Positions 4,153 through 34,964 of a DNA stretch of 36,443 bases are shown one piece after another. Numbering within the stretch: position 1 is the stretch's first letter; each line of letters opens with the position of its first letter. The position numbers and the translations under genes are program-made. A model generated the notes under the pieces. The model was not told the DNA's origin. It saw nothing but the letters and a program-made list of their open reading frames with translations, and did no database searches. The DNA comes from a virus. The stretch is taken from positions 1 to 36,443 of IMG/VR virus record IMGVR_UViG_3300048694_000673; one strand, given 5' to 3'.

Positions 4153-4890
4153 ATGGCTGGTACCAGTGCGGAAAGACAAGAGAATGGTGTTATTGAAAAA
4201 ATAAAAAATGCTGTTCAAAAAAACAAAAAGAATCCAATAACATTGAAGGCTGGTAATGTAATTATTGAAGCTGTTATTGATGCTGAAAAGTTTAAAGGAA
4301 GACAGCTTGGTGGTTCTGAGCCTTATACTGATGTTGTAATTTATTATAAAAAGAATGGAAAAATAGAGCAATTCAATTGTTCTTTAAAGGGAGAATCTGC
4401 TCCCTCATTAGCTGGTGGAGGTCTAAGGGGATTAGAATTGGCTGTTCCTGGAATAGCAAAGAAATTCATGAGAAATGCTTTTAATGAATTGCAAAAAAAG
4501 AAAAAATTAAAAACAGGCGATAAGGTTCCTGATGTTTTTGGTGAAATAAGTTCATCATCCAAAATGAAGATTGTTATAGGAAATGAAATGATGGGTGGAC
4601 CTATAGATTTTATGTACATAGGTCCAATGAATGTTGTTGGCAGATATGATGAAAAAAAGAATATCTTGTCATTAAATGGGAATTTAATTGAAGCTGAACA
4701 CTATGCTAAAACACACAAATTGTATTTTCGTTTGAGGGCAAGAAGAGAAGATCAACGATTTGATCCAGATGCTAAAGACAAAGACGGTACACCTAAAATT
4801 TATGGTATTTCTCCTTCGAAAGGAGATAGTGCAGGAAGAATAGTTGTAACAGATAAAGTTCCATCAACGGGCGTAATTATAAGGTTGTAA
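4153..4890 (+). CDS. Conserved phage protein of unknown function, late
   Basis: A 245-residue soluble protein with start ATG 4153 and AGGA 6-9 nt upstream. It resembles an unnamed conserved protein of marine T4-like phages that begins MAGTxAERQENxVIEKI. It is lysine-rich at the start, with a glycine-rich SLAGGGLRGLELAVPG stretch near residue 90 and GGPIDFMYIGPM near residue 150. No catalytic motif, signal peptide or membrane helix is evident. It is the first gene after a late promoter box and 1 nt before the ligase-like gene, which suggests a virion or head-associated role, but this is inference from position. Confidence 0.7.
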   Translation: MAGTSAERQENGVIEKIKNAVQKNKKNPITLKAGNVIIEAVIDAEKFKGRQLGGSEPYTDVVIYYKKNGKIEQFNCSLKGESAPSLAGGGLRGLELAVPGIAKKFMRNAFNELQKKKKLKTGDKVPDVFGEISSSSKMKIVIGNEMMGGPIDFMYIGPMNVVGRYDEKKNILSLNGNLIEAEHYAKTHKLYFRLRARREDQRFDPDAKDKDGTPKIYGISPSKGDSAGRIVVTDKVPSTGVIIRL

Positions 4891-4891
4891 A

Positions 4892-5332
4892 ATGCTAAAC
4901 TTTAAAACATATCTCACAGAAGCTACCGATGATGACGGTAAACTAAAACATATTCCTCACGCAGAGGATCATCCACTTCATCATGGTCATGCTGGATTTG
5001 AACATGCATATGGCGCATTAATGCAAGCACATGAACACATGGCAAACAAAGAAAAGAATAGCAATCTTACAATGAAGTATGATGGCTCACCTTCTTTAGT
5101 TTTTGGTCATCATCCAAAAACAGGTAAATTCTTTGTTGCATCAAAATCTGCATTCAATAAGAATCCTAAGATTAATTATTCAGAAAAAGATATTGAGACA
5201 AATCACGGTCATTCACCGGGTCTAGCTCATAAATTAAAACACGCACTTAAACATCTTCCTAAAGTAACACCTAAAAAAGGTGTTTATCAAGGCGATATGA
5301 TGTTTTCCCATGAGGATCTGAAACATGAGTAA
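4892..5332 (+). CDS. Ligase-like nucleotidyltransferase (DUF6267-type), N-terminal half, with capsid-targeting-like leader
   Basis: First half of a protein that is usually a single chain in marine T4-like phages (I recall it as DUF6267). Residues 1-10 (MLNFKTYLTE) line up without gaps with the T4 internal-protein capsid targeting sequence and end in LTE before A11, a gp21-type cleavage pattern. KYDGSP at 62-67 looks like motif I (KxDG) of covalent nucleotidyltransferases (DNA/RNA ligases, capping enzymes), where the lysine receives AMP or GMP. VYQGDMMF near 131-138 could be motif III. The chain is very histidine-rich. It stops at 5332, and the rest of the domain continues in another frame from 5325, with 8 nt of overlap. 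The family assignment is fairly sure; the enzymatic activity is inferred from short motifs. Confidence 0.75.
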   Translation: MLNFKTYLTEATDDDGKLKHIPHAEDHPLHHGHAGFEHAYGALMQAHEHMANKEKNSNLTMKYDGSPSLVFGHHPKTGKFFVASKSAFNKNPKINYSEKDIETNHGHSPGLAHKLKHALKHLPKVTPKKGVYQGDMMFSHEDLKHE

Positions 5333-6074
5333 AGTATCTTTTACACCAAACACAATCACTTATACTGCTCATGGGCCACAAGCAGAGAAGATAAAAAAAG
5401 CTAAAGTCGGCATTGTTGTTCATCAACAATATCACGGCAATGATCTTGAATCAATGAAAGCATCTCCTCATACCGATCATGCGACAGAATTTAAACATCA
5501 TCCAGATGTATATCATCATTCAGCCGAACATGATACAAGTAAAATAGATTATACACATAATGATCAAAAAGAATTCCATAAACACATGGCAGCCGCTAAA
5601 CATATTCACGATACATATGGTAAAAAAATGTATCCTGCTACAGCACGCCATCAAGGTGAAGGCAATCATCTAGAGACTTATATTAATCATACAGTAAGAA
5701 CAGATGAAGCGCCAACTTCTGAAGGTTTGAAGAAACATATTAAAGAAAAATTCGCTAAAGCATCAGAAAAATTAAAGTCTGAAAAAAGCAAATCAGCAAA
5801 AGAAGCCGAAGCTGGAGAACATACTAAACATATTGAAAAGAATAAAGAACATTATGATCATCTCCTATCGATGCATCATCATCTCCAACAAGCAAAAAAC
5901 GTGCTAGTAAAGAATCTTGAGAAACATGAAGGTGGATATGAGCATCATATTGATCATAATAAATCAAAACCTGAAGGATTTGTTGTGAATCATGAAGGTA
6001 AGCCAACCAAGCTTGTAAATAGAAAAGAATTTGCTCGCGCCAATCTATTGAAAGTAAAAGCATGGAAAAAATAA
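5325..6074 (+). CDS. Ligase-like nucleotidyltransferase (DUF6267-type), C-terminal half
   Basis: Second half of the protein begun at 4892. It opens directly with KVSFTPNTITYTAHG, which in relatives follows GD(L/M)MF in the same chain. KVGIVVHQQYHG near residue 28 could be motif IIIa. PEGFVV at 216-221 fits ligase motif IV (EGxVx), and the lysine-rich tail (TKLV...LLKVKAWKK) could supply motif V. A long charged helical insert (about residues 130-190) separates these. The ATG at 5325 overlaps the upstream stop (ATGAGTAA), so it may be translated by re-initiation. Alternatively a +1 shift at GAG-TAA would rejoin the two halves, or the break may be an indel in the assembly. It has no leader of its own. 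Confidence 0.7.
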   Translation: MSKVSFTPNTITYTAHGPQAEKIKKAKVGIVVHQQYHGNDLESMKASPHTDHATEFKHHPDVYHHSAEHDTSKIDYTHNDQKEFHKHMAAAKHIHDTYGKKMYPATARHQGEGNHLETYINHTVRTDEAPTSEGLKKHIKEKFAKASEKLKSEKSKSAKEAEAGEHTKHIEKNKEHYDHLLSMHHHLQQAKNVLVKNLEKHEGGYEHHIDHNKSKPEGFVVNHEGKPTKLVNRKEFARANLLKVKAWKK

Positions 6075-6247: not shown

Positions 6248-7105
6248 ATGAAAGATGTGGTCGTTGGTTGTATAACCAATTATAATTTTGATACTATTAA
6301 ATATTGGGTTAATTCATTAGATAGATCAGGTTTTTCTGGTCATAAGATAATGATATGCTACAATATAGATTATAGTGTTTGTGATGAATTAACTAAAAGA
6401 AATTATAATGTCATTGGTTTTGAAAGAAATGATGTTGAAGGTAGACTTGAATTTCCAAGAGATTTTTCTATTGTTGTAGAAAGATTTATTCATACTTGGT
6501 ATTTCATTAAAAAGATAATTGAAACTGAAGATATTAGATTTCTAATTGCAACTGACGTTAAAGACGTTATTTTTCAATCTAATCCTTCTGAATGGTTAGA
6601 ACAGAATATTGGTTCTCATAAAATCAATGTAGGATCAGAATCCATTTCTTATGTTAATGAGAAATGGGGTCAAAATAATATGATTCAATCATTTGGTAAT
6701 GAATTATATAATTCAATGAAAGATAAAATCATATGTAATGCCGGTACCATTTCAGGACATGCAAAAGAATTAACTGATTTGATGTTGAATATCTATCTTA
6801 TTTGTTCTGGAATGCCAGGTCAAATATCTGGTGGTGGTGGCCCAGATCAAGCTGCCATGAATATTCTTCTTAATAGTGAACCATATAAATCTATCACAAA
6901 AGTATCTTCATCAGAAGATGGCTGGTGTGCCCAATTAGGCACCACAGGATTAACATCAAAGTGTTTAAATGATATTATTGAACCTATGCCTATTCTTAAT
7001 CCTGATAATATAGTTTATACCAGTCAAGGAAAACCCTTTACATTAGTTCATCAATATGATAGAATTCCATCTTGGAAGAAAATTATTGAAGAGAAATACT
7101 CATGA
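6248..7105 (+). CDS. Putative glycosyltransferase
   Basis: A 285-residue protein that I take to be a GT-A-fold glycosyltransferase. A beta-strand start (VVVGCITNYNFDTIKYWVNSL) leads to FLIATDVKDVIFQSNP near residue 100, which occupies the place of the DxD metal/sugar-nucleotide motif in families reading xxDxRDxxFQ. A glycine-rich GQISGGGGPDQAAMN near residue 197 resembles the acceptor-side loop (..PDQxxxN) of such enzymes. Its start has GAGG upstream. It is the first of six sugar genes, and its end overlaps the next gene by 4 nt (ATGA). The donor and acceptor are unknown. Confidence 0.65.
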   Translation: MKDVVVGCITNYNFDTIKYWVNSLDRSGFSGHKIMICYNIDYSVCDELTKRNYNVIGFERNDVEGRLEFPRDFSIVVERFIHTWYFIKKIIETEDIRFLIATDVKDVIFQSNPSEWLEQNIGSHKINVGSESISYVNEKWGQNNMIQSFGNELYNSMKDKIICNAGTISGHAKELTDLMLNIYLICSGMPGQISGGGGPDQAAMNILLNSEPYKSITKVSSSEDGWCAQLGTTGLTSKCLNDIIEPMPILNPDNIVYTSQGKPFTLVHQYDRIPSWKKIIEEKYS

Positions 7106-7860
7106 GAAATAATCTAGTTATTGTTCCTGTAGGTTCTTCTATTGAAAGATTTTTACATAATTATAATGTTTCAAAAGAAAATCATTGGCGCCAAGCTAAT
7201 CAAGATAGAAATTATGATATTCTTGCTGTACAATATGGCGAATATGAACCCGAACAAGGTACATATGATAAATTTTACAAGATTAAAGGATTCAAATGGC
7301 CAATCTTGAAGAAACTTAATAAGATGATCGACCTTACAGAATGGGAATATATCGGTATTTATGATGATGATGTTATCTTAGACTATCAGACAATGAATAA
7401 GTCTTTTGAGTTTGCAAAAGAAAAGAATTTAAAAGCATTTCAGATTTCTTTAGCTGAAGGTTCTGAATCACAATGGCCAGTAACTCGTAATAAAAAAGAC
7501 ATTATCTATACATATACCAATTTCATTGAGATAATGTGTCCAGTATTTAATAGAATTAGTCTTGAAAAGGTACTTAAATTGATTGATTCATATGATGTTT
7601 ATACTGGCTGGGGTATAGATTGTATATTATCAGAATATCTAGAGACTGATCCCGCTGTATTGCATTTTATCAAGATGTTTCATCCACCTCGTCCAGAGAC
7701 TGGTAGTGAGTATGATAAGTATAAAGCGTTTAGTGAAATGGATGAATTGTTCAAGAATGTATATCCAAAGATAATGCAACAAAGTGGTAGAGATATAAAA
7801 ATAGATTACACAAGATTTAAAGATGAAGTGAAGCAGATTATTTTTAATACTGGAGTTTAA
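7102..7860 (+). CDS. Putative glycosyltransferase, DUF707-like
   Basis: A 252-residue protein with YIGIYDDDVILD near residue 91, a DDD metal-binding motif after a hydrophobic strand, and GWGIDCILSEYL near residue 170, both features of DUF707-like putative glycosyltransferases. The MFHPPRPETGSEYDKYK stretch near residue 196 is also typical, with a histidine that could coordinate the metal. The start overlaps the previous stop (ATGA), indicating translational coupling, and the epimerase gene follows after 1 nt. The sugar and acceptor cannot be told from sequence. Confidence 0.7.
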   Translation: MRNNLVIVPVGSSIERFLHNYNVSKENHWRQANQDRNYDILAVQYGEYEPEQGTYDKFYKIKGFKWPILKKLNKMIDLTEWEYIGIYDDDVILDYQTMNKSFEFAKEKNLKAFQISLAEGSESQWPVTRNKKDIIYTYTNFIEIMCPVFNRISLEKVLKLIDSYDVYTGWGIDCILSEYLETDPAVLHFIKMFHPPRPETGSEYDKYKAFSEMDELFKNVYPKIMQQSGRDIKIDYTRFKDEVKQIIFNTGV

Positions 7861-7861
7861 T

Positions 7862-8773
7862 ATGAATGTTATTGTTACAGGTGGAGCTGGATTTATTGGA
7901 TCACATATAGTTGATCAACTTGTTGATAAAGGTTATAAAGTTAAAGTTATTGATAATGAATCATCAACAGTTCATGAGAGATTTTATTATAATAGAGAAG
8001 CTGATTATTATCCATTTGATATAACTGATTATGAATCAACACGAAATCTATACAATGACGTTGATTTTGTGTTTCATTTAGCGGCTGAGTCAAGAATTCA
8101 GCCAGCTATTGAAAATCCCATTCTAGCTATTAAAACTAATACATTAGGTACAGGAACCGTATTACAATGTGCAAGAGAAGCTGGTGTTAAAGGAGTTATA
8201 TACTCATCAACATCTTCTGCGTATGGATTGAGAAATAAAGGTGCGTTACATGAAGAATTATCTGATGATTGTTTAAATCCTTATTCAGTTTCTAAAGTAT
8301 CGGGTGAAAAACTATGTAAAATGTATTCAGATTTGTTTGGTTTATCTACAGTAGTTTTCAGATATTTTAATGTATATGGTCCGAGAGAACCTATTAAAGG
8401 TCCTTATGCACCTGTTGTTGGACTTTTCTTGAGACAGAGAAAAGATAATCAACCTTTAACTATTGTTGGTGATGGTAGTCAACGAAGAGATTTTACGCAT
8501 GTATATGATGTAGTTGATGCTAATATTAGAGCTATGGACAAGATTAAAGAAGGAACAGTGTATAAAGGTGAATTGATTAATATAGGTACAGGTCTTAATC
8601 ATTCTGTATTAGAATTAGCTATGAAAATATCAGATTCTATCAAGTTTATTCCACCTAGAATTGGTGAAGCTAAAGAAACATTGGCTAATACTACAAAAGC
8701 ACATAAACTTCTTGGATGGATTCCAAAGGGAAACATTTTAAAATATATTCAGGAAGAATTGGAGAAAAAATGA
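7862..8773 (+). CDS. NAD-dependent nucleotide-sugar epimerase/dehydratase (GalE-like)
   Basis: Extended short-chain dehydrogenase/reductase acting on a nucleotide sugar. The Rossmann NAD motif GGAGFIGS is at residues 7-14, with acidic D31 after the second strand. The catalytic triad is present as SSTSSAYG (115-122) and Y141-SVS-K145. YFNVYGPRE and the substrate-side GDGSQRRDFTHVYDV follow in the usual order. The length of 303 residues is normal. Together with the mutase at 10150, the simplest role is making UDP-galactose from UDP-glucose, but other epimerases share all these motifs. GGAG precedes the ATG, and the end overlaps the methyltransferase by 4 nt. Confidence 0.88.
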   Translation: MNVIVTGGAGFIGSHIVDQLVDKGYKVKVIDNESSTVHERFYYNREADYYPFDITDYESTRNLYNDVDFVFHLAAESRIQPAIENPILAIKTNTLGTGTVLQCAREAGVKGVIYSSTSSAYGLRNKGALHEELSDDCLNPYSVSKVSGEKLCKMYSDLFGLSTVVFRYFNVYGPREPIKGPYAPVVGLFLRQRKDNQPLTIVGDGSQRRDFTHVYDVVDANIRAMDKIKEGTVYKGELINIGTGLNHSVLELAMKISDSIKFIPPRIGEAKETLANTTKAHKLLGWIPKGNILKYIQEELEKK

Positions 8774-9357
8774 ATATATTTCTTGATTTAGGAACTCATT
8801 ATGGACAAGGTTTAAGAGAGTTTATTGATAGATTCAAAATGGATAGCAGTTGGATTATCCATACATTCGAAGCTAATCCTAATACCTATAAAGTCTTTAT
8901 GGATGAATATCATAAATTAACACCTTGGGTAATACCACACAATGAAGCTGTTTCTGCTCATTATGGCACATTGACTGTTAATATTGAGACACCTCCCAAT
9001 GAAGATGCAACAGGAATGGGTTCTTCTGTGATTGATCTTGATAACTGGAATCCTTGGGGCGGTGAATTACGTCAAAATTTTAATACAAAGGCTACTGTTC
9101 CATGTATTGATCTATCCGATTTCATTTCTAAGAACTTCAAAGAAGATGATACTTTGATAATCAAGATGGACATTGAGGGTTCAGAATATGAAACTCTTGA
9201 AAAGATGATTAATGATAATATCATGGAAAGAGTTAATTTCATTGCTGTTGAATGGCATTCCAGATTCTTTGTGAAGAAATTAGAAATAGAAGAAAAAGAA
9301 AGAAATATTATTAAAAGAATAAATGAACTTAACATTAATTTGGAATCGTGGAAATGA
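8770..9357 (+). CDS. FkbM-family SAM-dependent methyltransferase
   Basis: A 195-residue Rossmann-fold methyltransferase. The start at 8770 is an ATGA overlap with the epimerase, with GGAG 6 nt upstream. A reading from 8716 would run back into the epimerase gene. DLGTHYGQG near residue 5 is motif I for S-adenosylmethionine, HTFEANPNTY near residue 33 contains the acidic ribose-binding residue, and LIIKMDIEGSEYETL near residue 130 is the signature of the FkbM type (xKxDIEGxE). FkbM enzymes usually O-methylate sugars, which fits the surrounding glycosyltransferases. The target is unknown. Confidence 0.85.
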   Translation: MNIFLDLGTHYGQGLREFIDRFKMDSSWIIHTFEANPNTYKVFMDEYHKLTPWVIPHNEAVSAHYGTLTVNIETPPNEDATGMGSSVIDLDNWNPWGGELRQNFNTKATVPCIDLSDFISKNFKEDDTLIIKMDIEGSEYETLEKMINDNIMERVNFIAVEWHSRFFVKKLEIEEKERNIIKRINELNINLESWK

Positions 9358-10157
9358 GTCAAGGCTATTTTTTAATTGCTTTAGGAAAAAGATATATTGA
9401 TGAATGCTGTCTCTTAGCAAATACTATACGAAAATCAGGTGATCAAAGACCTATAAGTCTATTAGTTCATGATGAAGATAAAGATTACGCAAAAGAAAAA
9501 GAATTATTTGATAAGTTAGTTTCATTTGAACCTTTATCTGGTTTATATTATCAATGTGAGACAAACTTTGAGAAGTATTGTCTATATCCACGAGTTAATT
9601 TCGATTATTACATACCTTACGACGAAAACATCATTGTGGATAGTGATGTTTTGTGTCAGTATAATCCCGATCATGTTTGGAATTTCTGTCAGAATAACAA
9701 TTACGGTATTGTTATGCAAGGTAGAATCAATGATCCAAATTGGCATTGGGGTACTATTGGAGAAGTATCTAAAGAAGTTGGTAAGCATGTTCCTCATGTA
9801 CATGGTGGATTTTTCTATTTGAGAAAAAATACTTTTCTTACACCATTCTTTGAGTGCGCCAAGCATGTATTTTTTAATTATGATAAGTATAAATGTAAAA
9901 GATATTTCCGTGGCGGCAGAGTAGATGAAATTCTTTTTGCTATCAGTTATGCTCATTTTGGTATTGAGCCAGTCGAATTTGATGAATATCCTATAATGAC
10001 ATTCAATTATTCATCTAATATTGATGTTCCATCCAAGCTGCAAACAGAAGGTGGACAGAATATAGAAATGAATAATTATCCTCCATTTATTCATATGTTT
10101 GACAAAATGGAAGGTAATGAATTTCAGAATTTGTATAGGAAAATAATGAATGTATGA
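9354..10157 (+). CDS. Putative glycosyltransferase, GT8-like
   Basis: A 267-residue protein starting at an ATGA overlap with the methyltransferase (an upstream GTG at 9348 is less likely). The N-terminus (YFLIALGKRYIDECCLLANTIRKSG) and ENIIVDSDVL near residue 98, a DSD form of the DxD motif, resemble GT8-type retaining glycosyltransferases. HVHGGFFYLRKN near residue 147 and the late IHMFDKMEG histidine fit the acceptor and metal sites. It overlaps the mutase gene by 8 nt. Fold assignment is fairly good; sugar specificity is not visible. Confidence 0.7.
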   Translation: MSQGYFLIALGKRYIDECCLLANTIRKSGDQRPISLLVHDEDKDYAKEKELFDKLVSFEPLSGLYYQCETNFEKYCLYPRVNFDYYIPYDENIIVDSDVLCQYNPDHVWNFCQNNNYGIVMQGRINDPNWHWGTIGEVSKEVGKHVPHVHGGFFYLRKNTFLTPFFECAKHVFFNYDKYKCKRYFRGGRVDEILFAISYAHFGIEPVEFDEYPIMTFNYSSNIDVPSKLQTEGGQNIEMNNYPPFIHMFDKMEGNEFQNLYRKIMNV

Positions 10158-11244
10158 TTATTTGATTGTGGGATCTGGTTTTTTTGGTTCCACTTTTGCA
10201 AGACTAGCAACAGATGATGGTAAAAAATGTCTTGTACTTGATAAAAGATCACATATTGGCGGAAATGCATACAGTTCAAGAACTTTAGATATCGATGTTC
10301 ATCAATACGGACCACATATTTTTCATACGAATTCCAAAGATATCTGGTCTTTTGTCAATAAGTTTTCTGAATTTAATAACTTCATCCTAACTCCTAAATC
10401 ATTTGTGAATGGTAGATTATACTCATTACCATTCAATATGAATACATTTCAAGAGATATGGAATATCATTAAACCAGATGACGCTAAAGCAATCATCGAA
10501 AAACAAAAGTTTAAAGGTATACCATCCAATCTAGAAGAACAAGCTTTAAGTCTGGTAGGTAAAGAAATATATGATCTTCTAATCAAAGGTTATACCCAAA
10601 AACAATGGAAAAAAGAACCAAAAGACTTACCATCTTTTATCATCAAACGATTACCAGTTAGATATACCTACGATAATAATTATTTTAATGATAGATATCA
10701 AGGCATACCCGTCGATGGATATGACAAACTGTTTGAAAGAATGTTAGATGGAATCGATGTTCAATTAAATACCGATTTTTTATCAGATAGAGAGTATCTG
10801 ACAAGAATGACAAAAAGAGTTGTATATACCGGTAAGATAGATGAATACTTTGATTATGAATATGGTGATTTAGAGTATCGTGGATTATCTTTTGTCCATG
10901 AAAAACTTGATGTAGAGAACTATCAAGGTACTGCTATGGTTAATTATCCTTCATTGGATGTACCCTGGACAAGAATAGTAGAACATAAGCATTTTACCGG
11001 TGTATCATCCAAATATACTATCATAACCAAAGAATATCCCGTATCATGTGGTAGAAATGATATTCCTTATTATCCTATAAATGACGAAAAAAACAATACA
11101 AATTACACAAAATACAAAGAAAAAGCTGCAAATGAGAGTAATGTTATCTTTGGAGGTAGACTTTCTGAGTATATGTACTATGATATGCATCAGGTAATAG
11201 GATCAGCTATGGCAAAGTATAGAAAAGAAAAAGATTATAAATAA
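10150..11244 (+). CDS. glf: UDP-galactopyranose mutase
   Basis: Flavoenzyme that converts UDP-galactopyranose to UDP-galactofuranose, the donor for galactofuranose-containing glycans. The FAD-binding motif is GSGFFGSTFARL near residue 8, followed by the second nucleotide strand (KCLVLDKRSHIGGNAYS) and HQYGPHIFHTNS, all highly characteristic of Glf. KGYTQKQWKKEP near residue 148 and RLPVRYTYDNNYFNDRYQG near 172 contain the family's substrate-binding tryptophan and arginine/tyrosines. FGGRLSEYMYYDMHQ near the end is the C-terminal FAD/substrate segment. The length of 364 residues is normal. It closes the sugar cassette, and a late promoter box overlaps its stop. Confidence 0.93.
   Translation: MYDYLIVGSGFFGSTFARLATDDGKKCLVLDKRSHIGGNAYSSRTLDIDVHQYGPHIFHTNSKDIWSFVNKFSEFNNFILTPKSFVNGRLYSLPFNMNTFQEIWNIIKPDDAKAIIEKQKFKGIPSNLEEQALSLVGKEIYDLLIKGYTQKQWKKEPKDLPSFIIKRLPVRYTYDNNYFNDRYQGIPVDGYDKLFERMLDGIDVQLNTDFLSDREYLTRMTKRVVYTGKIDEYFDYEYGDLEYRGLSFVHEKLDVENYQGTAMVNYPSLDVPWTRIVEHKHFTGVSSKYTIITKEYPVSCGRNDIPYYPINDEKNNTNYTKYKEKAANESNVIFGGRLSEYMYYDMHQVIGSAMAKYRKEKDYK
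11236..11243 (+). promoter_or_regulatory. T4-type late promoter box TATAAATA
   Basis: Exact TATAAATA overlapping the stop codon of the mutase gene and 30 nt upstream of the ATG at 11274. It has the same arrangement as the box at 4119, and both precede a gene or run of genes with a capsid-targeting-like leader. Confidence 0.7.
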
Positions 11245-11273: not shown

Positions 11274-13241
11274 ATGAAATTTAAAGAATTCCTATTAGAA
11301 TCCGAGGAAAAACACGGCGTCTTAGCGTTTGGACGCATGAATCCTCCAACTACCGGTCATGAAAAATTAGTCAATAAGGTTAAAGAGATAGCCAAGGAAG
11401 TTGGTGGAGAACATCATGTTGTTCTTTCAGCATCCCAGGATAAAGCTAAAAATCCTCTTTCAGCCGCTCAGAAGCAAAAACATGCTAAACGAGCATTTCC
11501 AAATACCAATATATCGGTAGCTACCAAAGAACATCCAACATTCCTTCAACATGCTGCTAAACTTCATAAAGCAGGTGTTACTCATCTTCACATGATTGCA
11601 GGTTCAGATCGCACTGAAGAATATAAGAAAAAGCTTCATCAATACAATGGTACCCATAAAGGTGCATTATATAATTTCAAAAAGATAACTGTTCATAGTT
11701 CTGGTGAACGTGATCCGGATGCGGAAGGAACAGAAGGTATGTCAGCATCCAAGATGCGCGAACATGCTAAGAATGGTAATTATAACGAATTTAAAAAAGG
11801 TATACCTTCTCATGTATCACATGAACATGCCAAAGAGATGTATCATGATGTTAGAAAAGGTATGGGATTACATGAATCTGTAAATGAAGCATTTGATCAG
11901 ATGCTTACTGAAGGTGTTCATGATAGAGGTATATTTAAAGCTGTTTTCATGGCAGGTGGTCCAGGATCGGGTAAAGACTTTGTGATGAAGTCTATTTTTG
12001 GTGAATCGGGCAATGCAGCATATGGTACTAGTACCACATCAGGATTGATTGAGATTAATTCAGACAAAGCATTTGAGTATCTAATGGATCAAAATGGTTT
12101 AGATAAGAAGATGCCCGATTCAGAAGATCAGCAACGTGATGTGTTAAGAGGTAAAGCGAAGAATATTAAAGAACTTCGTCAAAGATTGGCTATATCTGGA
12201 AGAAATGGTTTAATTATAAATGGAACTGGTGATGATCCAGAAAAATATGGTCAATTAAATGATGTATTGAAAAAACTTGGTTATGAAACCAAGATGATAT
12301 TAGTCACTACTTCTGATGAAACATCCCAAGAAAGAAACAAGAAACGTGGTGCTAGTGGTAGTAGAGAAGTGAAAGAACCCATCAGAAAAGCAAAGTGGGA
12401 AGGTGTTCAGAAATCTAAAGATGCTTTCAAGGATATGTTTGGTGATGATTTTCTCGAATTTGATAATGATATAGATTTGAAATCAGATAAAGTACCAGAT
12501 GAATTGAAAAAACAAAAAACAGAAGAGCTTTTGAGTATTTTCAAAAATGTTAATAAATGGATCGATAAGCCAGTTAATGGTGAACAAGCTAAAAGCTGGA
12601 TTGGTGGTCAATTAAAATCATCTGATAATCTTCAAGTATCTAAACAAAAACCACCAGCTGGTTCTAATGCATCGGCACAAGCACAACAGATGGGTCTAGA
12701 ATATTATGGTTTTGGAAGATATGGTAAAGATGGTAAAACTATGTATCATAGCATTCATGATAGATTAGTACCTGTTGTTAAAGGTGTAAAAGAAAGTATT
12801 GATGATGATTTTGATGAAATTATTTCAGAGTCTTATGGATTGTCTGATGATTCTTCAAGAAGATTGCTTCTTTTAGGAACAGACATAAGTGAAGAAGATA
12901 CAGAAACAAGAATATCAACAATCGATAATTCTGATATATCAGAAACGGAGAATACTAATGAAAGCTTTAATAGAGAAGGTAAAAAAGTTATTTCAGAAGG
13001 AAGAATCTATAGTGATAGAGGAAATAGCTATAGTACCAGAAAAGAAGATGGAAGAAACGGATATCAAGAAATTGCCGAAGAAAAAGAGAAAGTACACAAA
13101 AAAATCAGTTTAAATAAATTGAAGATTAAATTAAATCTAAAGCCACAAAACATTGATGATGAGTTTGGTAAAACGGATCAGGATGATGCAATAGATGGAC
13201 CTGAATTTTTAAGACCTCCATTGGGAAGCACAAGGGATTAA
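11274..13241 (+). CDS. NadR-like fusion: cytidylyltransferase (NMNAT-like) domain plus P-loop kinase, with capsid-targeting-like leader
   Basis: A 655-residue modular protein. Residues 1-9 (MKFKEFLLE) resemble the T4 capsid targeting sequence and end in LLE. Residues about 14-195 form a nucleotidyltransferase domain with FGRMNPPTTGH (the (H/T)xGH site) and MSASKMR at 156-162, the counterpart of the ISxTxxR motif. Residues about 215-425 form a P-loop kinase with Walker A GGPGSGKD (228-235) and a zeta-toxin/polynucleotide-kinase-like layout. The C-terminal 200 residues are low-complexity, ending in a conserved-looking tail (DEFGKTDQDDAIDGPEFL). NMNAT plus kinase is the NadR architecture, so NAD synthesis is possible, but specificity is unproven. 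Protease-like sites (SVNE205, MLTE213, IISE519, VISE575) sit between modules. Confidence 0.8.
   Translation: MKFKEFLLESEEKHGVLAFGRMNPPTTGHEKLVNKVKEIAKEVGGEHHVVLSASQDKAKNPLSAAQKQKHAKRAFPNTNISVATKEHPTFLQHAAKLHKAGVTHLHMIAGSDRTEEYKKKLHQYNGTHKGALYNFKKITVHSSGERDPDAEGTEGMSASKMREHAKNGNYNEFKKGIPSHVSHEHAKEMYHDVRKGMGLHESVNEAFDQMLTEGVHDRGIFKAVFMAGGPGSGKDFVMKSIFGESGNAAYGTSTTSGLIEINSDKAFEYLMDQNGLDKKMPDSEDQQRDVLRGKAKNIKELRQRLAISGRNGLIINGTGDDPEKYGQLNDVLKKLGYETKMILVTTSDETSQERNKKRGASGSREVKEPIRKAKWEGVQKSKDAFKDMFGDDFLEFDNDIDLKSDKVPDELKKQKTEELLSIFKNVNKWIDKPVNGEQAKSWIGGQLKSSDNLQVSKQKPPAGSNASAQAQQMGLEYYGFGRYGKDGKTMYHSIHDRLVPVVKGVKESIDDDFDEIISESYGLSDDSSRRLLLLGTDISEEDTETRISTIDNSDISETENTNESFNREGKKVISEGRIYSDRGNSYSTRKEDGRNGYQEIAEEKEKVHKKISLNKLKIKLNLKPQNIDDEFGKTDQDDAIDGPEFLRPPLGSTRD
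12958..13113 (+). CDS. Possible small basic gene overlapping in another frame
   Basis: A 51-residue reading frame fully inside the 11274 gene, shifted against it. It has a strong ribosome-binding site (GGAG at 12947-12950, 7-nt spacing before ATG 12958) and a protein-like composition: an amphipathic start (MKALIEKVKKLFQKEE) and a lysine-rich tail (KLPKKKRKYTKKSV). In the main frame this stretch is polar low-complexity sequence. It may be a real overlapping gene or a by-product of AT-rich coding. Confidence 0.35.
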   Translation: MKALIEKVKKLFQKEESIVIEEIAIVPEKKMEETDIKKLPKKKRKYTKKSV

Positions 13242-13242
13242 C

Positions 13243-13821
13243 ATGAAAAATCTTAAGAATTATCTTACTGAATTAGATGAAAAGCTTCAAGAGACAACTA
13301 TAAGTGAGGCTATTGACTGGCATGTAAAAGAACAAGTACCATTGATTGAATCTATTTTTCGAGTTGGTTCAGAGAAATATTTTCAATTATTTCGTGAAGC
13401 AAGAGAGATGTTGAATAATGGTGCATTTGATCATTCATCATTAACTAATCTTGATCTTTCTATTTTAAGAGAAACTGATTTAGGTATTATTGTTGAACAT
13501 GAAGGTAAAATGGTACCATTAGATTGTCCTATGATTGAAGAGGAAGAGAAGCATCCTCCTATTGGACAGCCAAAGCGTGGTGGAACTAAGAAGTTTTATG
13601 TATATGTGAGGAAACCTGATGGTGGTATCAAGAAAGTAAGTTGGGGTGATACTACAGGATTATCTGTTAAGATGAATAATCCTGAGAGAAGAAAGTCATT
13701 TGCTGCAAGGCATAAGTGTTCTATTCAGAAAGATAGAACAAGTGCTGCATATTGGGCATGTAATACTCCTCGATACGCAAAGAGTTTAGGATTATCTGGT
13801 GGTGGAAACTTCTATTGGTAA
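13243..13821 (+). CDS. Conserved phage protein with capsid-targeting-like leader
   Basis: A 192-residue protein, one nucleotide after the previous gene. Residues 1-10 (MKNLKNYLTE) align without gaps to the T4 capsid targeting sequence and end in LTE; a second site of the same kind (TISE22 before A23) follows. The C-terminal 100 residues (KKFYVYVRKPDGGIKKVSWGD, then a Cys/Trp-containing AAYWACNTPRYAKSLGLSGGG) form a module that I recall as common in marine phage proteins with no known function. Cys and basic residues in ARHKCSIQKDR...YWAC could bind a metal, but only two cysteines are present. Its end overlaps the next gene by 23 nt. Confidence 0.75.
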   Translation: MKNLKNYLTELDEKLQETTISEAIDWHVKEQVPLIESIFRVGSEKYFQLFREAREMLNNGAFDHSSLTNLDLSILRETDLGIIVEHEGKMVPLDCPMIEEEEKHPPIGQPKRGGTKKFYVYVRKPDGGIKKVSWGDTTGLSVKMNNPERRKSFAARHKCSIQKDRTSAAYWACNTPRYAKSLGLSGGGNFYW

Positions 13822-14365: not shown

Positions 14366-15607
14366 ATGTTTAATGATAAACTAACAAAAAATATTGCCGA
14401 AGCAGCAGCAAAAATTATGCAAGAGGATCTTAAGGGTATGCAAAAGAAATTAGATATTAATGAAGCTGTAAAACCAAGTTATCAACATTATAAAAGGGAA
14501 GTTCTTCCTTTATATCATAAACATGGTTTATCGCCAGAATTTGCTAAAGCTGTTGATGATCATGTTAAAAAATATGGTGATCAGCAAGTTTATAATCATC
14601 ATGGCGATGCAGGTGGTGGAATGCCACATTGGTTTGATAGCGATAAACAAAAAGTAAAATCTTTAAAACCTCATAAAGGTTATGATGTTAATGAAGGTAT
14701 TGAAGATCGTTTAGAAGCTGCTCGCGCGAAAGCAAAAGCTGCTGGTAAGCCAGTAAATCCACCCGCAAAACCAGCAGCAACTAATATTCGTAAAGTATCA
14801 GGAACAGCATATGGTGGTTCAGCACAAAAAGATGAACCAGAATCAGATGATGACAATAAAAGTGTTGATACACCAAAACGTGGTCGTGGACGTCCAAAAG
14901 GTAGTACAAATGTGCGTCGTTATGACACAAAAGTTTATTCAGATGAGCCAGAAGCACCAAAACGTGGTCGTGGACGTCCAAAAGGTTCGAAAAATAAAGT
15001 CAAGCTTCAAGGTGAATCATTTTCAGAAATTATGGAAGATTTAAAAACTGGTGGATTGAAAGCATTATATGATCATGTTATATTAGAAGAAATCATTGAA
15101 GAAGAGCCAGACAATGAACAATTCACAAAAGAATTGGAAAAACAAAAGAGAAAAGAAGCTGGAACAGCTAAAGATGATGAAAAGGCAAAGGTAGCTAAGG
15201 CATCAGTGCAAGCTGTTAAGAATGAAGAAGTTGAGAATGAAGAAGTTGAATTAACAGAAGAAGAAAAATCTGAATTAAAGGTTGGTGATAAGGTTCATGC
15301 TGGATATAGATATAAAGGTGGTGCAGGATATAAAGGCATTGTACATAAAGTAGAACCTGATCATGTTTTAATTAATGTTGGTAAAGATAGATTTGGTGAA
15401 AAGATTGTAAAAGCTTCTCATAAAGTTGTGACGAAAGAGGAAGTTGAAGCGATTGAAGAGCGCGAATTGACTCCAGCGGAGACAGAAAAGAAAGAAGAAA
15501 TTGTTAAGTCAATGAAGAAAAATATGGCTGGATTTAAGGAACGCTATGGTAAGAGAGCAAAAGAGGTAATGTACGCTACAGCTACAAAGTCAGCTAAAGG
15601 TGAGTAA
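14366..15607 (+). CDS. Modular AT-hook DNA-binding protein, probable internal head protein
   Basis: A 413-residue charged protein built of short modules. Two AT-hooks (KRGRGRPKGS at about 171-180 and 199-208) predict binding to the minor groove of AT-rich DNA, which fits this genome. Residues 304-355 (LKVGDKVHAGYRYKGGAGYKG...) look like an SH3/KOW-type barrel. Residues 380-408 (KSMKKNMAGFKERYGKRAKEVMYATATK) are a helical tail I recall in many marine phage proteins. Sites of the (V/I/L)xE-small residue type occur at IAE12, INE33, VNE110 and possibly LTE298. DNA-binding in the head or soon after entry is inferred. Start ATG 14366 has AAGGA upstream. Confidence 0.75.
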   Translation: MFNDKLTKNIAEAAAKIMQEDLKGMQKKLDINEAVKPSYQHYKREVLPLYHKHGLSPEFAKAVDDHVKKYGDQQVYNHHGDAGGGMPHWFDSDKQKVKSLKPHKGYDVNEGIEDRLEAARAKAKAAGKPVNPPAKPAATNIRKVSGTAYGGSAQKDEPESDDDNKSVDTPKRGRGRPKGSTNVRRYDTKVYSDEPEAPKRGRGRPKGSKNKVKLQGESFSEIMEDLKTGGLKALYDHVILEEIIEEEPDNEQFTKELEKQKRKEAGTAKDDEKAKVAKASVQAVKNEEVENEEVELTEEEKSELKVGDKVHAGYRYKGGAGYKGIVHKVEPDHVLINVGKDRFGEKIVKASHKVVTKEEVEAIEERELTPAETEKKEEIVKSMKKNMAGFKERYGKRAKEVMYATATKSAKGE

Positions 15608-15608
15608 T

Positions 15609-16676
15609 ATGGCAAAACCAATCTCTGAAATTAAACAATCGACTGGCAAGCTGAAAGATGCTTGCTGGTCGGGTTATACGGCTGTGGGTATGAAAGAGAA
15701 GAATGGTAAGAAAGTGCCTAATTGTGTGCCTGTTAAGGAAGCAAAAGATGAAGATGAGTATGATCAAGAAGGAGATATGGCAAAAACACAACTCAGAAGT
15801 ATAATGCATGATGCGAAAGAACTTCATGATATGCTTGAGGACAATGATAATTTGCCAGAATGGGTACAATCAAAAATCACATTAGCACAAGATTATATTT
15901 CTACTGTACATGATTATATGGGATCAGTTCAGGAAGGAACAGAACAACAAGGTCGATTTTCATCTGGTGCACCAAAGAGATTGATTAAAGCTCCTGTTTT
16001 GGTACCTTCACAGCATATGGATACACATAAGAAGCCATATAAGACTGCACCCGGTGAAGCGACAAAGATAACACAACCTGTATCAAGATTATCTGTTGTA
16101 AAGAGTATAGCTAAACAAAGAATGGGTGAAGCAGTAGAAGAGCCTCCATTTAAAGGACCTTATAAGAAAAAGGAAGAACCTGTAACTGATAAGTCTGGAG
16201 CAAAACACTCACAACTTTCAAGAGTTAAGCATTTGGCTAAGAGTGCAATGAAGAAGCAAATGAAGGAGCAATATTCAAAAGATAACAGGAATGTCGATTT
16301 ACAGCATGTTAATGAAGCTAAAGAAAAAAATCACAAATCTGGTTTTGTTGCGATAGCAGTAAATCATCCTATGTCTCCTGAAGGACAAAAAGGAAACAGA
16401 TACACTGTTTTTTTCAAAGCTGACCGCAGTTCTCCTAGAGGGAGAACTAAAGCGAAAGATATATCCCATCATCAAGATGTAGAATCTGCTGAAAAAGCCA
16501 AGCAAGATTATGCATCGAAATATTCAAAGTTTGGCGTTACTGCATTGAAAAGATATAATGAATCTGTTGAGACAGAGCCAAACAAGATGAAAGACAAGAA
16601 TATTAAATTAACAGGAAAGAAAGATAAGTTTATTAAAGATCCAACATTAACACCATTGATATTGAGACAAGCTTAA
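15609..16676 (+). CDS. Modular phage protein, probable internal head protein
   Basis: A 355-residue protein starting at ATG 15609 (a GTG at 15600 overlaps the previous stop; the ATG has AGGTGAG upstream). The N-terminal module GKLKDACWSGYTAVGMKEKN..VPNCVPVKE and the following EGDMAKTQLRSIMHDAKELHDML..LPEWVQSKITLAQDYISTVHDYM are both modules I recall in many marine T4-like phage proteins of unknown function. The rest is basic and low-complexity. Sites VKE-A, VQE-G, MGE-A and VNE-A separate the modules and resemble prohead protease sites. No catalytic motif seen. It overlaps the next start by 1 nt. Confidence 0.7.
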   Translation: MAKPISEIKQSTGKLKDACWSGYTAVGMKEKNGKKVPNCVPVKEAKDEDEYDQEGDMAKTQLRSIMHDAKELHDMLEDNDNLPEWVQSKITLAQDYISTVHDYMGSVQEGTEQQGRFSSGAPKRLIKAPVLVPSQHMDTHKKPYKTAPGEATKITQPVSRLSVVKSIAKQRMGEAVEEPPFKGPYKKKEEPVTDKSGAKHSQLSRVKHLAKSAMKKQMKEQYSKDNRNVDLQHVNEAKEKNHKSGFVAIAVNHPMSPEGQKGNRYTVFFKADRSSPRGRTKAKDISHHQDVESAEKAKQDYASKYSKFGVTALKRYNESVETEPNKMKDKNIKLTGKKDKFIKDPTLTPLILRQA

Positions 16677-18598: not shown

Positions 18599-19185
18599 TT
18601 TCTTGGATTTCGTTTATACCTGAATCAAGTATAATAATGATAGTACATACGCTATTGGTAATAGGTATAGTTGCGTATTTTGCATCTAGATATTCAGGAA
18701 TATATAAGTTTATTTTATCTCCAATAGCTATAATTATCATTATTTCTACCATATTTGCAGAAGGTATATATTATAATCAGAAAAAATATCAAGAGCAAAT
18801 GCAAGAATATCAAAACAAGATACATGATGCGGAAGAAGAAGCTAAGAAAGCTAGTGATAATATACGAATTAAGTATATTGATAAAGTAAAAGTCATAAAG
18901 GAAACTAGTGATGAGAATGTTAAATACATTGAAAAAGTTGTTACACAATATGATAGTAGCTGTACTTTGTCTAACGCTGCAATCATGCTCCACAATAGTT
19001 CCAGTCAAAATGTCGTGGCCAGAAGTTCCGGAGGAATTGATGAAGGAACCTCCGATGTTAAAGCAAGTGAACTCCTTAAAGTCATCACAGACAACTATTC
19101 AACCTATTACCAAGTAAGAGAACAATTACTTGGATGGCAAGATTGGTATAAGGAACAAAAGAAAATATATGAAAGTGTGAAATGA
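18595..19185 (+). CDS. Inner-membrane spanin (Rz-like)
   Basis: A 196-residue lysis protein predicted to sit in the inner membrane and reach through the periplasm. Two hydrophobic segments (about residues 8-30 and 38-57) are followed by a long charged coiled coil (QKKYQEQMQEYQNKIHDAEEE and on) and a C-terminal domain with SCTLSNAAIMLHNSSSQN and NYSTYYQVREQLLGWQDWY, which resembles Rz-like proteins. A second, lipoprotein frame lies inside it at 18911-19117, the Rz/Rz1 layout. The pair should fuse inner and outer membranes in the last step of lysis. Two N-terminal hydrophobic segments instead of one is unusual. It overlaps both neighbours by 4 nt. Confidence 0.8.
   Translation: MISWISFIPESSIIMIVHTLLVIGIVAYFASRYSGIYKFILSPIAIIIIISTIFAEGIYYNQKKYQEQMQEYQNKIHDAEEEAKKASDNIRIKYIDKVKVIKETSDENVKYIEKVVTQYDSSCTLSNAAIMLHNSSSQNVVARSSGGIDEGTSDVKASELLKVITDNYSTYYQVREQLLGWQDWYKEQKKIYESVK
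18911..19117 (+). CDS. Nested outer-membrane spanin lipoprotein (Rz1-like)
   Basis: A 68-residue ORF entirely inside the i-spanin gene in another frame (an earlier GTG lies at 18908). A basic start (MRMLNTLKKLLHN), a hydrophobic stretch and a lipobox (LQSC, Cys26) form a lipoprotein signal. The mature part STIVPVKMSWPEVPEELMKEPPML is proline-rich, as in Rz1-type o-spanins, and would be anchored in the outer membrane. Complete nesting in Rz is the arrangement of phage lambda. Alternative starts ATG 18920 and 18953 exist; 18953 would give a shorter signal lacking basic residues. Confidence 0.75.
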   Translation: MRMLNTLKKLLHNMIVAVLCLTLQSCSTIVPVKMSWPEVPEELMKEPPMLKQVNSLKSSQTTIQPITK

Positions 19186-21044
19186 AAAAATTTAGTGAAT
19201 ATGATGAAAAACAGAATAAAGAACCTGAACACAAATCTCTTTTTGAAGAAATTTTATTCAAAACAAGAAAAAATAAAAAGTATTCAGAAAAAAATGAAAT
19301 TCAAGAAGAATTCATTCAAGAGTCTGAACTTGTAATTGAATCCGAACCTGAACCTGAACCTGAACCAATAAAACAAATAGTAACAGAAGTTACTGCTACT
19401 GATAATGATGGTATTTTACTTAAATTAAACAAAGGTGAAAAGGGTGATAAAGGAGATCCTGGTCCAGAAGGTCCTATTGGTCCTATGGGTCCACAAGGTG
19501 AGCGTGGTGAAACAGGATTAAGAGGAATTCAAGGATATCCGGGAATACAAGGACCTGTAGGTCCAGAAGGTCCTATTGGTCCAGAAGGTCCTATTGGTCC
19601 AAAAGGTAATAAAGGTGATCCAGGTTCACAAGGTAAACCCGGACCTAAAGGAGAAAAAGGATCAAAAGGTGATAAGGGTGACACTGGCCCTATTGGTCCT
19701 ATAGGTCCAAGTGGAGGTCCAATAGGACCTCAAGGTCCAGCTGGCCCGCAAGGCGAAAAAGGTGAGAGGGGTGAAAAAGGTGAAAAAGGTGATCCTGGTG
19801 ATATCACAAAGATTAGTGAGTCTATTACAAAATTAAATGAAGATGTTAGCAGAAGAATTAATAAAGTTGTTTCGGATTTTGGTGTACTATCTGCATCAGG
19901 TGGTTCAGGTTCATATTGGTTATATGATTTAGGTGATACGGATCATAGTATAAAAAATGCGACAAATGGTCAAGTATTAACATATAATTCATCAACAAGC
20001 AAATGGATCGCACAAGATCCTACTGGTGGCTCAGGTGGCTCAGGCATCGATCAATTTGCAAGAGATACAGCAAATTCAGCTAATGTATTGTCACAATCAG
20101 CCTATGCATTCGCTAATACTGTTAATGTAAAGACTGATTCAGCTTATGCATTCGCTAATACTGTTAATGTAAAGACTGATTCAGCTTATGCATTCGCTAA
20201 TACTGTTAATGTAAAGACTGATTCAGCTTATGCATTTGCTAATACTGTTAATGTAAAGACTGATGCTGCTTATGCATTCGCTAATACTGTTAATGTAAAG
20301 ACTGATTCAGCTTATGCGTTTGCTAATACTGTTAATGTAAAGACTGATTCAGCTTATGCATTTGCTAATACTGTTAATGTAAAGACTGATGCTGCTTATG
20401 CATTCGCTAATACTGTTAATGTAAAGACTGATGCTGCTTATGCATTTGCTAATACTGTTAATGTAAAGACTGATGCTGCTTATGCATTCGCTAATACTGT
20501 TAATGTAAAGACTGATTCAGCTTATGCGTTTGCTAATACTGTTAATGTAAAGACTGATGCTGCTTATGCATTCGCTAATACTGTTAATGTAAAGACTGAT
20601 TCAGCTTATGCGTTTGCTAATACTGTTAATGTGTTTGCACAAGCCGCATTTAATTACGCGAATACTGCTTTAACTGCAAATAGTGTATTATCGCCGGCAT
20701 CTAATAGTAGTGTAGCGAATAGTGTTGGTTATTTAGGAATTCCTCAAAATAGTCAATCAAGCAATTATACATTAACTATTGCTGATCAGAGTAAACATAT
20801 ATACGTTACTGCTAATTCTACTATTACTATTCCAGCAAATTCATCTGTGTCATTTCCACTTGGTTCAACATTTTCTGTTATTACTGCTGGAGGTGTTACT
20901 GCAAACGTAGCAATAACAACGGATAATTTATATCTTGGTGGTATTGGTAGCACAGGAACTAGAACTATATCGCCATATGGTATGGCAACTGCTATTAAGG
21001 TAACGGCTAATACTTGGTTTATTTCGGGTGCTGGTGTTGCATAA
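19182..21044 (+). CDS. Collagen-like fibre protein with tandem 14-residue repeats
   Basis: A 620-residue fibre-type protein. Residues 1-84 are charged, with a PEPEPEP stretch. Residues 85-205 are collagen-like Gly-X-Y: 40 triplets interrupted by one extra glycine at about 178, which should form a trimeric rod. After a linker, about residues 306-484 hold 13 copies of a 14-residue unit (consensus SAYAFANTVNVKTD). The C-terminal 110 residues (YTLTIADQSKHIYVTANSTITIP onward) look like a beta-rich virion domain found in other phage structural proteins. It is probably a tail or head fibre that touches the host. The start overlaps the spanin stop by 4 nt. MKKFSEYDE resembles the leader of internal proteins but lacks the (L/I)xE end. 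Confidence 0.85.
   Translation: MKKFSEYDEKQNKEPEHKSLFEEILFKTRKNKKYSEKNEIQEEFIQESELVIESEPEPEPEPIKQIVTEVTATDNDGILLKLNKGEKGDKGDPGPEGPIGPMGPQGERGETGLRGIQGYPGIQGPVGPEGPIGPEGPIGPKGNKGDPGSQGKPGPKGEKGSKGDKGDTGPIGPIGPSGGPIGPQGPAGPQGEKGERGEKGEKGDPGDITKISESITKLNEDVSRRINKVVSDFGVLSASGGSGSYWLYDLGDTDHSIKNATNGQVLTYNSSTSKWIAQDPTGGSGGSGIDQFARDTANSANVLSQSAYAFANTVNVKTDSAYAFANTVNVKTDSAYAFANTVNVKTDSAYAFANTVNVKTDAAYAFANTVNVKTDSAYAFANTVNVKTDSAYAFANTVNVKTDAAYAFANTVNVKTDAAYAFANTVNVKTDAAYAFANTVNVKTDSAYAFANTVNVKTDAAYAFANTVNVKTDSAYAFANTVNVFAQAAFNYANTALTANSVLSPASNSSVANSVGYLGIPQNSQSSNYTLTIADQSKHIYVTANSTITIPANSSVSFPLGSTFSVITAGGVTANVAITTDNLYLGGIGSTGTRTISPYGMATAIKVTANTWFISGAGVA
19434..19796 (+). repeat. Collagen-like Gly-X-Y coding repeat
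   Basis: Forty Gly-X-Y triplets, many as GPI GPE, GEK GDK or GPK. The phase is broken once by a single extra glycine codon (31 triplets, one Gly, then 9 triplets). Confidence 0.9.
20097..20633 (+). repeat. 13-copy 42-bp tandem repeat
   Basis: In-frame direct repeats of a 42-bp unit encoding (S/A)AYAFANTVNVKTD, starting at 20097. The copies are almost identical at DNA level; differences are mainly TCA/GCT in the first codon and CATTCG, CATTTG or CGTTTG later. The last copy lacks the KTD codons. Such near identity suggests recent expansion and copy-number variation by recombination or replication slippage. Confidence 0.95.
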
Positions 21045-33933: not shown

Positions 33934-33953
33934 GAGTGAAACTGGAGTATATT

Positions 33954-34964
33954 ATGAGAAAACTTGCGACTATTCGGAAAATTAATGATATCAAGTCTAT
34001 TCCTAATGCGGATGCTATTGAGGTAGCTACTGTTGATGGATGGCAGGTTGTTGTTAAGAGGGGTGAATATAAGATTGGTGATTTGGCTATCTACTGTGAG
34101 ATTGATAGTTGGATTCCCAATTCTATTGCATCGTTTCTTTCTAAAGGAAAAGAACCCAGAGTATATCAGAATATTGCGGGTGAAAGACTGAGGACTGTTA
34201 AACTGCGTGGGCAAATCAGTCAAGGTTTATTGCTTCCTTGCAATATTATTCCGAGACAAGTAGAATTGGGTGAGGATGTTTCAGAAGAATTAAACATTAA
34301 CAAATGGGAAATGGAAATTCCTGCTCAGTTGAGAGGAACTGTGAGAGGATCATTTCCTTCATTTATTCCGAAAACCGATCAAGAAAGAATTCAGAATCTG
34401 GTTCATGAATTGGAACAATGGAAAGGTTCTAATGAACTATGGGAAATCACTGAAAAATTGGATGGTTCTTCAATGACAGTTTATGTAAATCAAGGTTATG
34501 ATGGTGTATGTTCGAGAAATCTTGATTTGAAGCGGGATGATAACAATTCATTTTGGAAAGTAGCTATTCAAGAGAGAATTCATGATAGAATTCGTGAAGT
34601 GTTTGGATCAAGAAATATTGCTTTACAAGGTGAATTGATTGGTCTAGGTGTTCAGGGAAACAAGTACAATCTGCAAGAATTGAAGTTTTATCTGTTTGAT
34701 ATCTTTGATATTGATCGGCAGATATATATTTCTGCAAGAGAGAGACATGATTTTTGTTTTTATATGGCTCTTAATCATGTGCCTGTGATGACTGTTAGAA
34801 GTTTGGATAAAGATGTTACTGTTGCAAGTCTATTGAAGCTTGCGGAAGGACCTTCTTTCCTTAATCTTAGAGTAGAAAAAGAAGGATATGTTTATAAGAA
34901 TATTCGTGATTCGAAGATTTCTTTTAAAACTATATCTAACAAGTTTCTTTTAGGGGAAAAATAA
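33954..34964 (+). CDS. RNA ligase with N-terminal OB-like domain (DraRnl/Rnl5-like)
   Basis: A 336-residue ATP-dependent RNA ligase. The start at 33954 (MRKLATIRKI, GGAG 8 nt upstream) is preferred to GTG 33936. Residues 1-110 (PNADAIEVATVDGWQVVVK, GDLAIYCEIDSWIP) match the N-terminal OB-like domain of Deinococcus-type RNA ligase. The nucleotidyltransferase core has motif I EKLDGSS with Lys168, SRN (188-190), LQGELIG (motif III), EGYVYKN (motif IV) and SFKTISNKF (motif V), so all main motifs are present. It may seal nicked RNA, for example tRNA cut by host defence. It is driven by the consensus promoter just upstream. Confidence 0.88.
   Translation: MRKLATIRKINDIKSIPNADAIEVATVDGWQVVVKRGEYKIGDLAIYCEIDSWIPNSIASFLSKGKEPRVYQNIAGERLRTVKLRGQISQGLLLPCNIIPRQVELGEDVSEELNINKWEMEIPAQLRGTVRGSFPSFIPKTDQERIQNLVHELEQWKGSNELWEITEKLDGSSMTVYVNQGYDGVCSRNLDLKRDDNNSFWKVAIQERIHDRIREVFGSRNIALQGELIGLGVQGNKYNLQELKFYLFDIFDIDRQIYISARERHDFCFYMALNHVPVMTVRSLDKDVTVASLLKLAEGPSFLNLRVEKEGYVYKNIRDSKISFKTISNKFLLGEK

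Follow-up and report, generated by a model that had tools for sequence, protein, structure and literature searches.

A candidate head-delivered nucleotidyltransferase-kinase polyprotein and its RNA-ligase-like partner in a fragment of a T4-like virus genome

Internal proteins of phage T4 enter the prohead by means of a leader of 10 residues. Residues 4 and 7 of this leader serve for targeting and residues 8 and 10 for processing, and gp21 cuts after L/I-X-E (PMC9026906). IPI-III and Alt are targeted to the capsid, processed by gp21 and injected, and they are a precedent for injected enzymes and inhibitors. The cyanophage 'cytidyltransferase' (T4-GC190; SSM1_190 of S-SM1, gp184 of Syn9, ORF154 of S-CREM2) belongs to the core genes of abundant ocean viruses and has been known in virions since 2010. 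To our knowledge, no function has been demonstrated for it. The authors of the S-CREM2 study proposed it as an NMNAT homologue possibly entering the host (PMC10665884), so that a packaged NMNAT-like protein is an already published idea and not a new one. Kinase, phosphatase and ligase are end-healing and end-sealing activities and belong to the phage answers to tRNA-cleaving defences (PMC7824862).

Here we analysed the window, a 36,443-base fragment of a virus record, and compared a 655-aa protein encoded in it with these systems. With IPI-III and Alt it has in common the leader spacing and the L/I-X-E site, whereas their cargo domains are unrelated to it; in the window protein, a linker that carries cleavage-type sites connects two enzymes. 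The cyanophage protein has a homologous nucleotidyltransferase (NTase) domain (41% identity over 190 aa), a leader, the same location between gp41 and gp61, a DUF6267 neighbour and occurrence in virions, but it is without the kinase domain, and hence the interdomain site is new in the window protein. T4 Pnkp/Rnl1 and the bacterial Pnkp systems likewise link a polynucleotide kinase (PNK)-like kinase, a ligase-like nucleotidyltransferase and, as in some of the present loci, a HAD phosphatase; here, in contrast, these are separate proteins with capsid leaders, the ligase-like DUF6267 is distinct and a HIGH NTase is added. NadR also has a HIGH NTase followed by a P-loop kinase, but the window kinase is of another family, the NTase scores below NMNAT cut-offs, a capsid leader is present and both domain orders occur among relatives. 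Zeta toxin/PezT is what the kinase matches best in Pfam and in PDB sequence profiles, but the kinase differs in having no recognised antitoxin, a virion leader and a fused NTase. As far as the searched literature shows, the kinase, the junction cleavage site and the ligase partner appear to be new.

Architecture, leader and predicted cleavage sites

The features of the ORF are as follows; a slash marks a predicted cut.

11274..13241, + strand: whole ORF, ATG start, 655 aa; leader, NTase, linker, kinase, disordered tail
11274..11300, + strand: capsid-targeting-like leader, residues 1-9, MKFKEFLLE/S, with a predicted [L/I]xE site; T4 ipII/ipIII spacing; mean pLDDT 66
11307..11873, + strand: HIGH-superfamily NTase domain, residues 12-200, from profile and structure matches
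11739..11759, + strand: MSASKMR, an ISSTxxR-type motif, residues 156-162; S157, K160 and R162 invariant in 58 NTases
11874..11924, + strand: linker, residues 201-217, with predicted gp21-type sites LHE/S (E201) and LTE/G (E213); pLDDT 54-75
11925..12569, + strand: P-loop kinase domain, zeta/polynucleotide-kinase-like, residues 218-432, from Pfam, PDB profile, Foldseek and VIA
12660..13238, + strand: C-terminal tail, residues 463-655, with further predicted sites ISE/S (E519) and ISE/G (E575)

The preliminary description of this DNA had reported nucleotidyltransferase motifs followed by a P-loop, and both are indeed found in one ORF: TTGH (residues 26-29), MSASKMR and then GGPGSGKD (residues 228-235). 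The span that it gave, 11274-12570, begins correctly but stops at 12570, where the kinase domain ends, and the gene continues for about 220 residues to 13241, mostly free of domains; a Pfam search of the tail (residues 463-655) found none. With the single 655-aa sequence, a scan of viral contigs gave nothing beyond a 100% identical copy in a second contig (L008) and a search of solved structures gave weak matches only, and therefore alignments were used. In these, R21, G28, H29, S157, K160 and R162 of the NTase are kept in 58/58 NTases, and GGPGSGK and R354 of the kinase in 67/67 kinases. AlphaFold2 with 67 aligned relatives modelled residues 1-462 confidently (mean pLDDT 89.3; domains 12-200 and 218-432), except for residues 1-10 and 201-220, where the confidence was low. 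A PADLOC run returned no result.

The leader MKFKEFLLE/S has the spacing of the ipII/ipIII leader of T4, MKTYQEFIAE/A, and is one residue shorter; it contains the T4-type pattern aromatic-x-x-aromatic-[LI]-x-E within the N-terminal ~10 residues. When a strict leader was defined by an aromatic residue, an aromatic residue at +3, L/I at +4 and E at +6, it was present in 37% of NTase(+kinase) ORFs and 45% of DUF6267 ORFs, against 4% of other genes and 0.05% of shuffles, an enrichment of about 10-fold on NTase and DUF6267 genes across the viral-contig loci (Fisher p 7e-43). In the window, only the genes at 4892 and 11274 carry it among 26 checked. Just 5% of stand-alone kinases have the strict form. 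What they carry is a looser form, found in 63, 78 and 60% of NTase(+kinase), kinase-alone and DUF6267 ORFs, respectively, versus 18% in the background.

The most telling pattern for head processing, as read from the sequences, is the E/G next to the kinase, which would be a point of cutting. In 84 of the 103 distinct kinases its distance to the F of FKA is exactly 8 residues, with L (70) or I (12) at P3 and any of 14 kinds of residue at P2; in 43 it closes a leader of about 8-21 residues at the N-terminus and in 41 a linker after another domain. Because stand-alone kinases bear a T4-like leader that ends at the same residue, a requirement of the fold alone would not explain E/G. The linkers of 43 NTase-kinase proteins contain 38 [LI]xE[AGS] sites (3.8 expected) and their NTase cores 0 (7.3 expected); the kinase core, with 42 matches against 22 in shuffles, is also above shuffles. 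In a second subfamily, of 19 NTase-kinase fusions, the linker carries G[LI][HN]E and the E/G site is missing.

In published virion proteomics, 'citidylyltransferase (T4-GC190)' was detected in S-SM1 and the NTase was not detected in S-PM2 (PMC3037559), and three peptides of the cytidylyltransferase ORF154 were found in S-CREM2, where the authors allowed for contamination (PMC10665884); these detections concern NTase homologues and neither the kinase nor the window phage. According to its record label, GC 190 of S-SM1 is SSM1_190, which is 41% identical to the window NTase over 190 aa and begins with MKKFSAFLNE/A. Delivery in the phage head, which the preliminary description had raised, is thus made probable by the leader, the gp21-type sites and the proteomics of the NTase family, and injection would be the step that follows.

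Families of the two domains

The NTase belongs to the HIGH nucleotidyltransferase superfamily, as it has TTGH and MSASKMR and scores 28.3 bits with TIGR00125 (cut-off 27.7). The 655-aa protein matches the PHROG 'cytidyltransferase' phrog_3041 (E 8e-70), and at residues 17-120 Pfam CTP_transf_like (E 3e-4). TIGR01526, the NadR NMNAT model, is weakly matched by 42 of 58 NTases (best 4e-8) and NadD by 34 of 58, and the matches of the NTase to the NadR, NadD, NadM and CoaD models are weak and all below cut-off. Foldseek found NadD at 1e-4. The predicted fold is of the NMNAT/PPAT type, with VIA Z scores of 13.5-14.9, and is structurally as close to PPAT (14.9) as to NMNAT (archaeal NMNAT, 13.6). 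Known NMNATs stack nicotinamide on a tryptophan, and the sequence of the NTase domain contains none.

Judged by sequence profiles and the predicted structure, the kinase is a zeta/polynucleotide-kinase-like P-loop kinase and not a member of the NadR kinase family. Pfam gave Zeta_toxin (residues 222-387, E 1e-13, 51.6 bits, gathering 22.3) and AAA_33 (E 7e-10, 39.8 bits, gathering 27). Of the 67 kinases, 66 have Zeta_toxin as their best Pfam family; AAA_28, which holds the NadR kinase, is matched by 1/67 (E 0.007). In the PDB profile search the zeta toxin 1gvn came first (3e-7), covering only the N-terminal part (17-126). Foldseek placed the kinase of C. thermocellum Pnkp first (E 4e-5, ranks 1-3), and VIA gave PSTK and Pnkp at Z 14.6. 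The residue after GK of the P-loop is Asp in NTase-fused kinases versus Ser/Thr in most stand-alone kinases.

The kinase varies in its partner. It is fused behind the NTase in the window and in front of it in L055 and L085; in HTVC008M it is a separate gene (gp129) directly before the NTase (gp130), and in the Melnitz phages it is at a different locus. Kinases also lie behind other HIGH-type NTases (L013, L043) and, in Atu_ph07, behind a different domain. By eye, Atu_ph07 gp053 looks like an Alt-type ADP-ribosyltransferase fused via VTE/G to a kinase of the window type, although Pfam did not confirm the transferase half; paralogues with an ADP-ribosyltransferase-like look (gp053-gp056 of Atu_ph07, at L007:190-5590) start with MRWEQL[TN]E or MKWNDLNE. 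CDS 31-76 of Atu_ph07 have been placed among virion-protein clusters (PMC6102473).

The preliminary description had read this arrangement as a NadR-like enzyme for NAD synthesis. The order of NTase and kinase agrees with NadR, and the NTase does have an NMNAT/PPAT fold in its model, but no NMNAT cut-off is reached (17.4 bits with TIGR01526, cut-off 341) and PPAT is as close, and membership in NadR was rejected on this score and on the family of the kinase. Because the kinase best matches zeta toxin, Pnkp and PSTK and hardly the NadR kinase family, the analogy with NadR is one of domain order only. The constant partner gene is RNA-ligase-like and does not belong to a NAD pathway. The structure comparison that it had suggested led to Pnkp/PSTK for the kinase and, for the NTase, to PPAT with NMNAT next. 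The other possibility that it had named, end repair by a kinase of the polynucleotide or zeta type, fits better.

Partner genes

Judged by their sequences, other genes of the window encode DNA polymerase, UvsX, helicase, primase, ThyX and NrdA/B. Its closest relatives that bear names belong to the Kyanoviridae: Pelagibacter phage HTVC008M, Methylophilales Melnitz phages and cyanophages. In these the conserved helicase-primase stretch holds a protein of unassigned family, DUF6267 and the NTase; in HTVC008M, Melnitz and the window the set also includes a HAD-type 5'(3')-deoxyribonucleotidase. Sugar-nucleotide/glycosyltransferase-like genes (6248-11244) separate DUF6267 from the NTase in the window; the block is also present in L089, L098 and L010 and is not at the matching place in HTVC008M, Melnitz and Syn9, where the NTase/DUF6267 core is present. 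In the window DUF6267 is in two pieces:

4892..5332, + strand: DUF6267 RNA-ligase-like, N-terminal piece, with leader MLNFKTYLTE/A and motif I KYDGSP
5325..6074, + strand: DUF6267 RNA-ligase-like, C-terminal piece, with EGFVV and KLVNR

The leader has its key residues at positions identical to those of the T4 leader. The pieces overlap by ATGAGTAA at 5325-5332; relatives have a single ORF, and L008 has an identical split. RNA folding at the frame change found no structure (z 0.22) and so gives no support for programmed frameshifting. To judge from the sequence, the window phage may have a two-piece or a damaged ligase.

DUF6267 is a Pfam family of unassigned function, with 94 ORFs in the examined loci (9 fused to the NTase), and it was not mentioned in the literature searched. 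Its model (pLDDT 91.5, leader disordered) is that of an RNA-ligase-like fold: VIA returned nucleic-acid ligases with RNA ligases leading (Naegleria Rnl Z 8.9, REL1 7.9, Trl1 7.5, T4 Rnl2 7.5, T4 Rnl1 7.0), and the covalent-nucleotidyltransferase motifs I (KxDG), IV (EG) and V (KxVxR) are near-invariant in the alignment. Foldseek gave no significant PDB match (best E 0.047), and the PDB sequence-profile search gave no ligase. HAD proteins with FDIDDTLF adjoin the ligase or the NTase in L130, L043, L120, L154 and L165, several of them with leaders; these are putative phosphatases, possibly of the 3' type.

A second, canonical RNA ligase (PF09414 with a PHA02142 OB-fold) is encoded at 33936-34964 of the window, without a capsid leader. 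A conserved neighbour (window 4153-4890, L002:9194-10252, L004:7248-8333) has by eye a PD-(D/E)xK-like pattern, TDxxI...SLK, and no Pfam match; its Melnitz version begins with MQGFKTFLSE/A. The gene after the 655-aa ORF (13243-13821) looks similar, by eye, to the C-terminal portion of the NTase protein of Melnitz (L004:9959-11911), including the SGGGNF[YF]W end, which is another fusion link.

A possible role in the repair of nucleic-acid ends

From the domains, leader, sites, gene linkage and predicted folds observed here, we infer as the best explanation a set of enzymes that is processed in the prohead, co-injected and used to repair nucleic-acid ends; to this explanation as a whole we give a probability of about 0.45. 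The ORF product would be a capsid-cargo polyprotein that the nine-residue leader brings into the prohead core. A T4-gp21-like prohead protease would trim the leader and cut the linker, releasing active NTase and active kinase, and both would be ejected into the host along with the DNA. There the kinase, of the 5'-OH polynucleotide kinase type, would act with the co-packaged DUF6267 RNA-ligase-like enzyme, joined in some relatives by the HAD phosphatase, in healing and sealing nucleic-acid ends. The most plausible target would be RNA, such as tRNA that a host defence has cut, and the repair would precede all phage gene expression. The third enzyme of the set would be the NTase, although we know of no established role of a HIGH-family NTase in end repair. 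Packaging and processing are probable parts of this explanation; end repair as the role falls somewhat short of even odds. Against the set we counted the missing detection in S-PM2 and the possible contamination in S-CREM2, the 19 fusions without E/G, the rarity of the strict leader on stand-alone kinases, the surplus of [LI]xE[AGS] matches in the kinase core, the Asp in the P-loop, the weak Foldseek result for DUF6267 and the split DUF6267 of the window. More tentative is the idea that aquatic T4-like phages widely inject a processed RNA end-repair kit that mends cleaved tRNA or other RNA before phage transcription; it would consist of a PNK-type kinase, the DUF6267 RNA ligase, a HAD phosphatase and the HIGH NTase, with kinase and NTase synthesised as a single chain and parted by the head protease.

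It is unlikely that the protein is a NadR-like cofactor enzyme that restores NAD early in infection, with nicotinamide riboside or another nucleoside as the substrate of the kinase and NMN as the compound adenylated by the NTase. The domain order, the weak NadR and NadD matches, the NMNAT role proposed for the packaged S-CREM2 protein and the occurrence of true NadR-like proteins in jumbo phages (PMC7824862) agree with it, but the NMNAT matches far below cut-off, the equal closeness of PPAT, the missing tryptophan, the kinase family and the ligase-like partner do not. The best Pfam and PDB profile matches of the kinase would suit an injected zeta-like toxin for host takeover, which phosphorylates UDP-GlcNAc or another host metabolite and whose product the NTase acts on. 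This is quite unlikely, since the PDB match is confined to the N-terminal kinase part, the structural comparison speaks at least equally for PNK and PSTK, no antitoxin gene was recognised beside the kinase and the linkage to DUF6267 would be unexplained.

Because PPAT is the nearest VIA match and sugar-nucleotide genes lie just upstream, a CoA-type cofactor enzyme or a maker of an NDP-linked modification precursor could also be considered, with a role late in infection or in decorating virions rather than in the recipient cell. We regard it as improbable: the sugar genes are missing there in relatives that keep the NTase/DUF6267 core, and the leader and the virion detection argue for packaging. 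Least probable of all is that leader and LxE sites mark a component of the head scaffold or DNA packing with structural enzyme domains; the T4 core proteins gp22, gp67 and gp68 likewise bear such sites, but both domains keep their catalytic residues with little or no variation.

The link of the NTase to a polynucleotide-type kinase and an RNA-ligase-like protein under one capsid-targeting code gives a testable idea, namely pre-emptive, virion-delivered RNA repair against tRNA-cleaving defences. DUF6267 gains a predicted fold, and injected cargo may be readable from sequence, as a leader plus L/I-x-E at domain joints.

Elsewhere in the window, low-complexity proteins are encoded at 14366-16676, one with IAE/A and INE/A near its N-terminus; these are possible head cargo or core proteins. 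One protein at 19182-21044 has collagen-like GxY repeats and a tandem repeat (AYAFANTVNVKTD).
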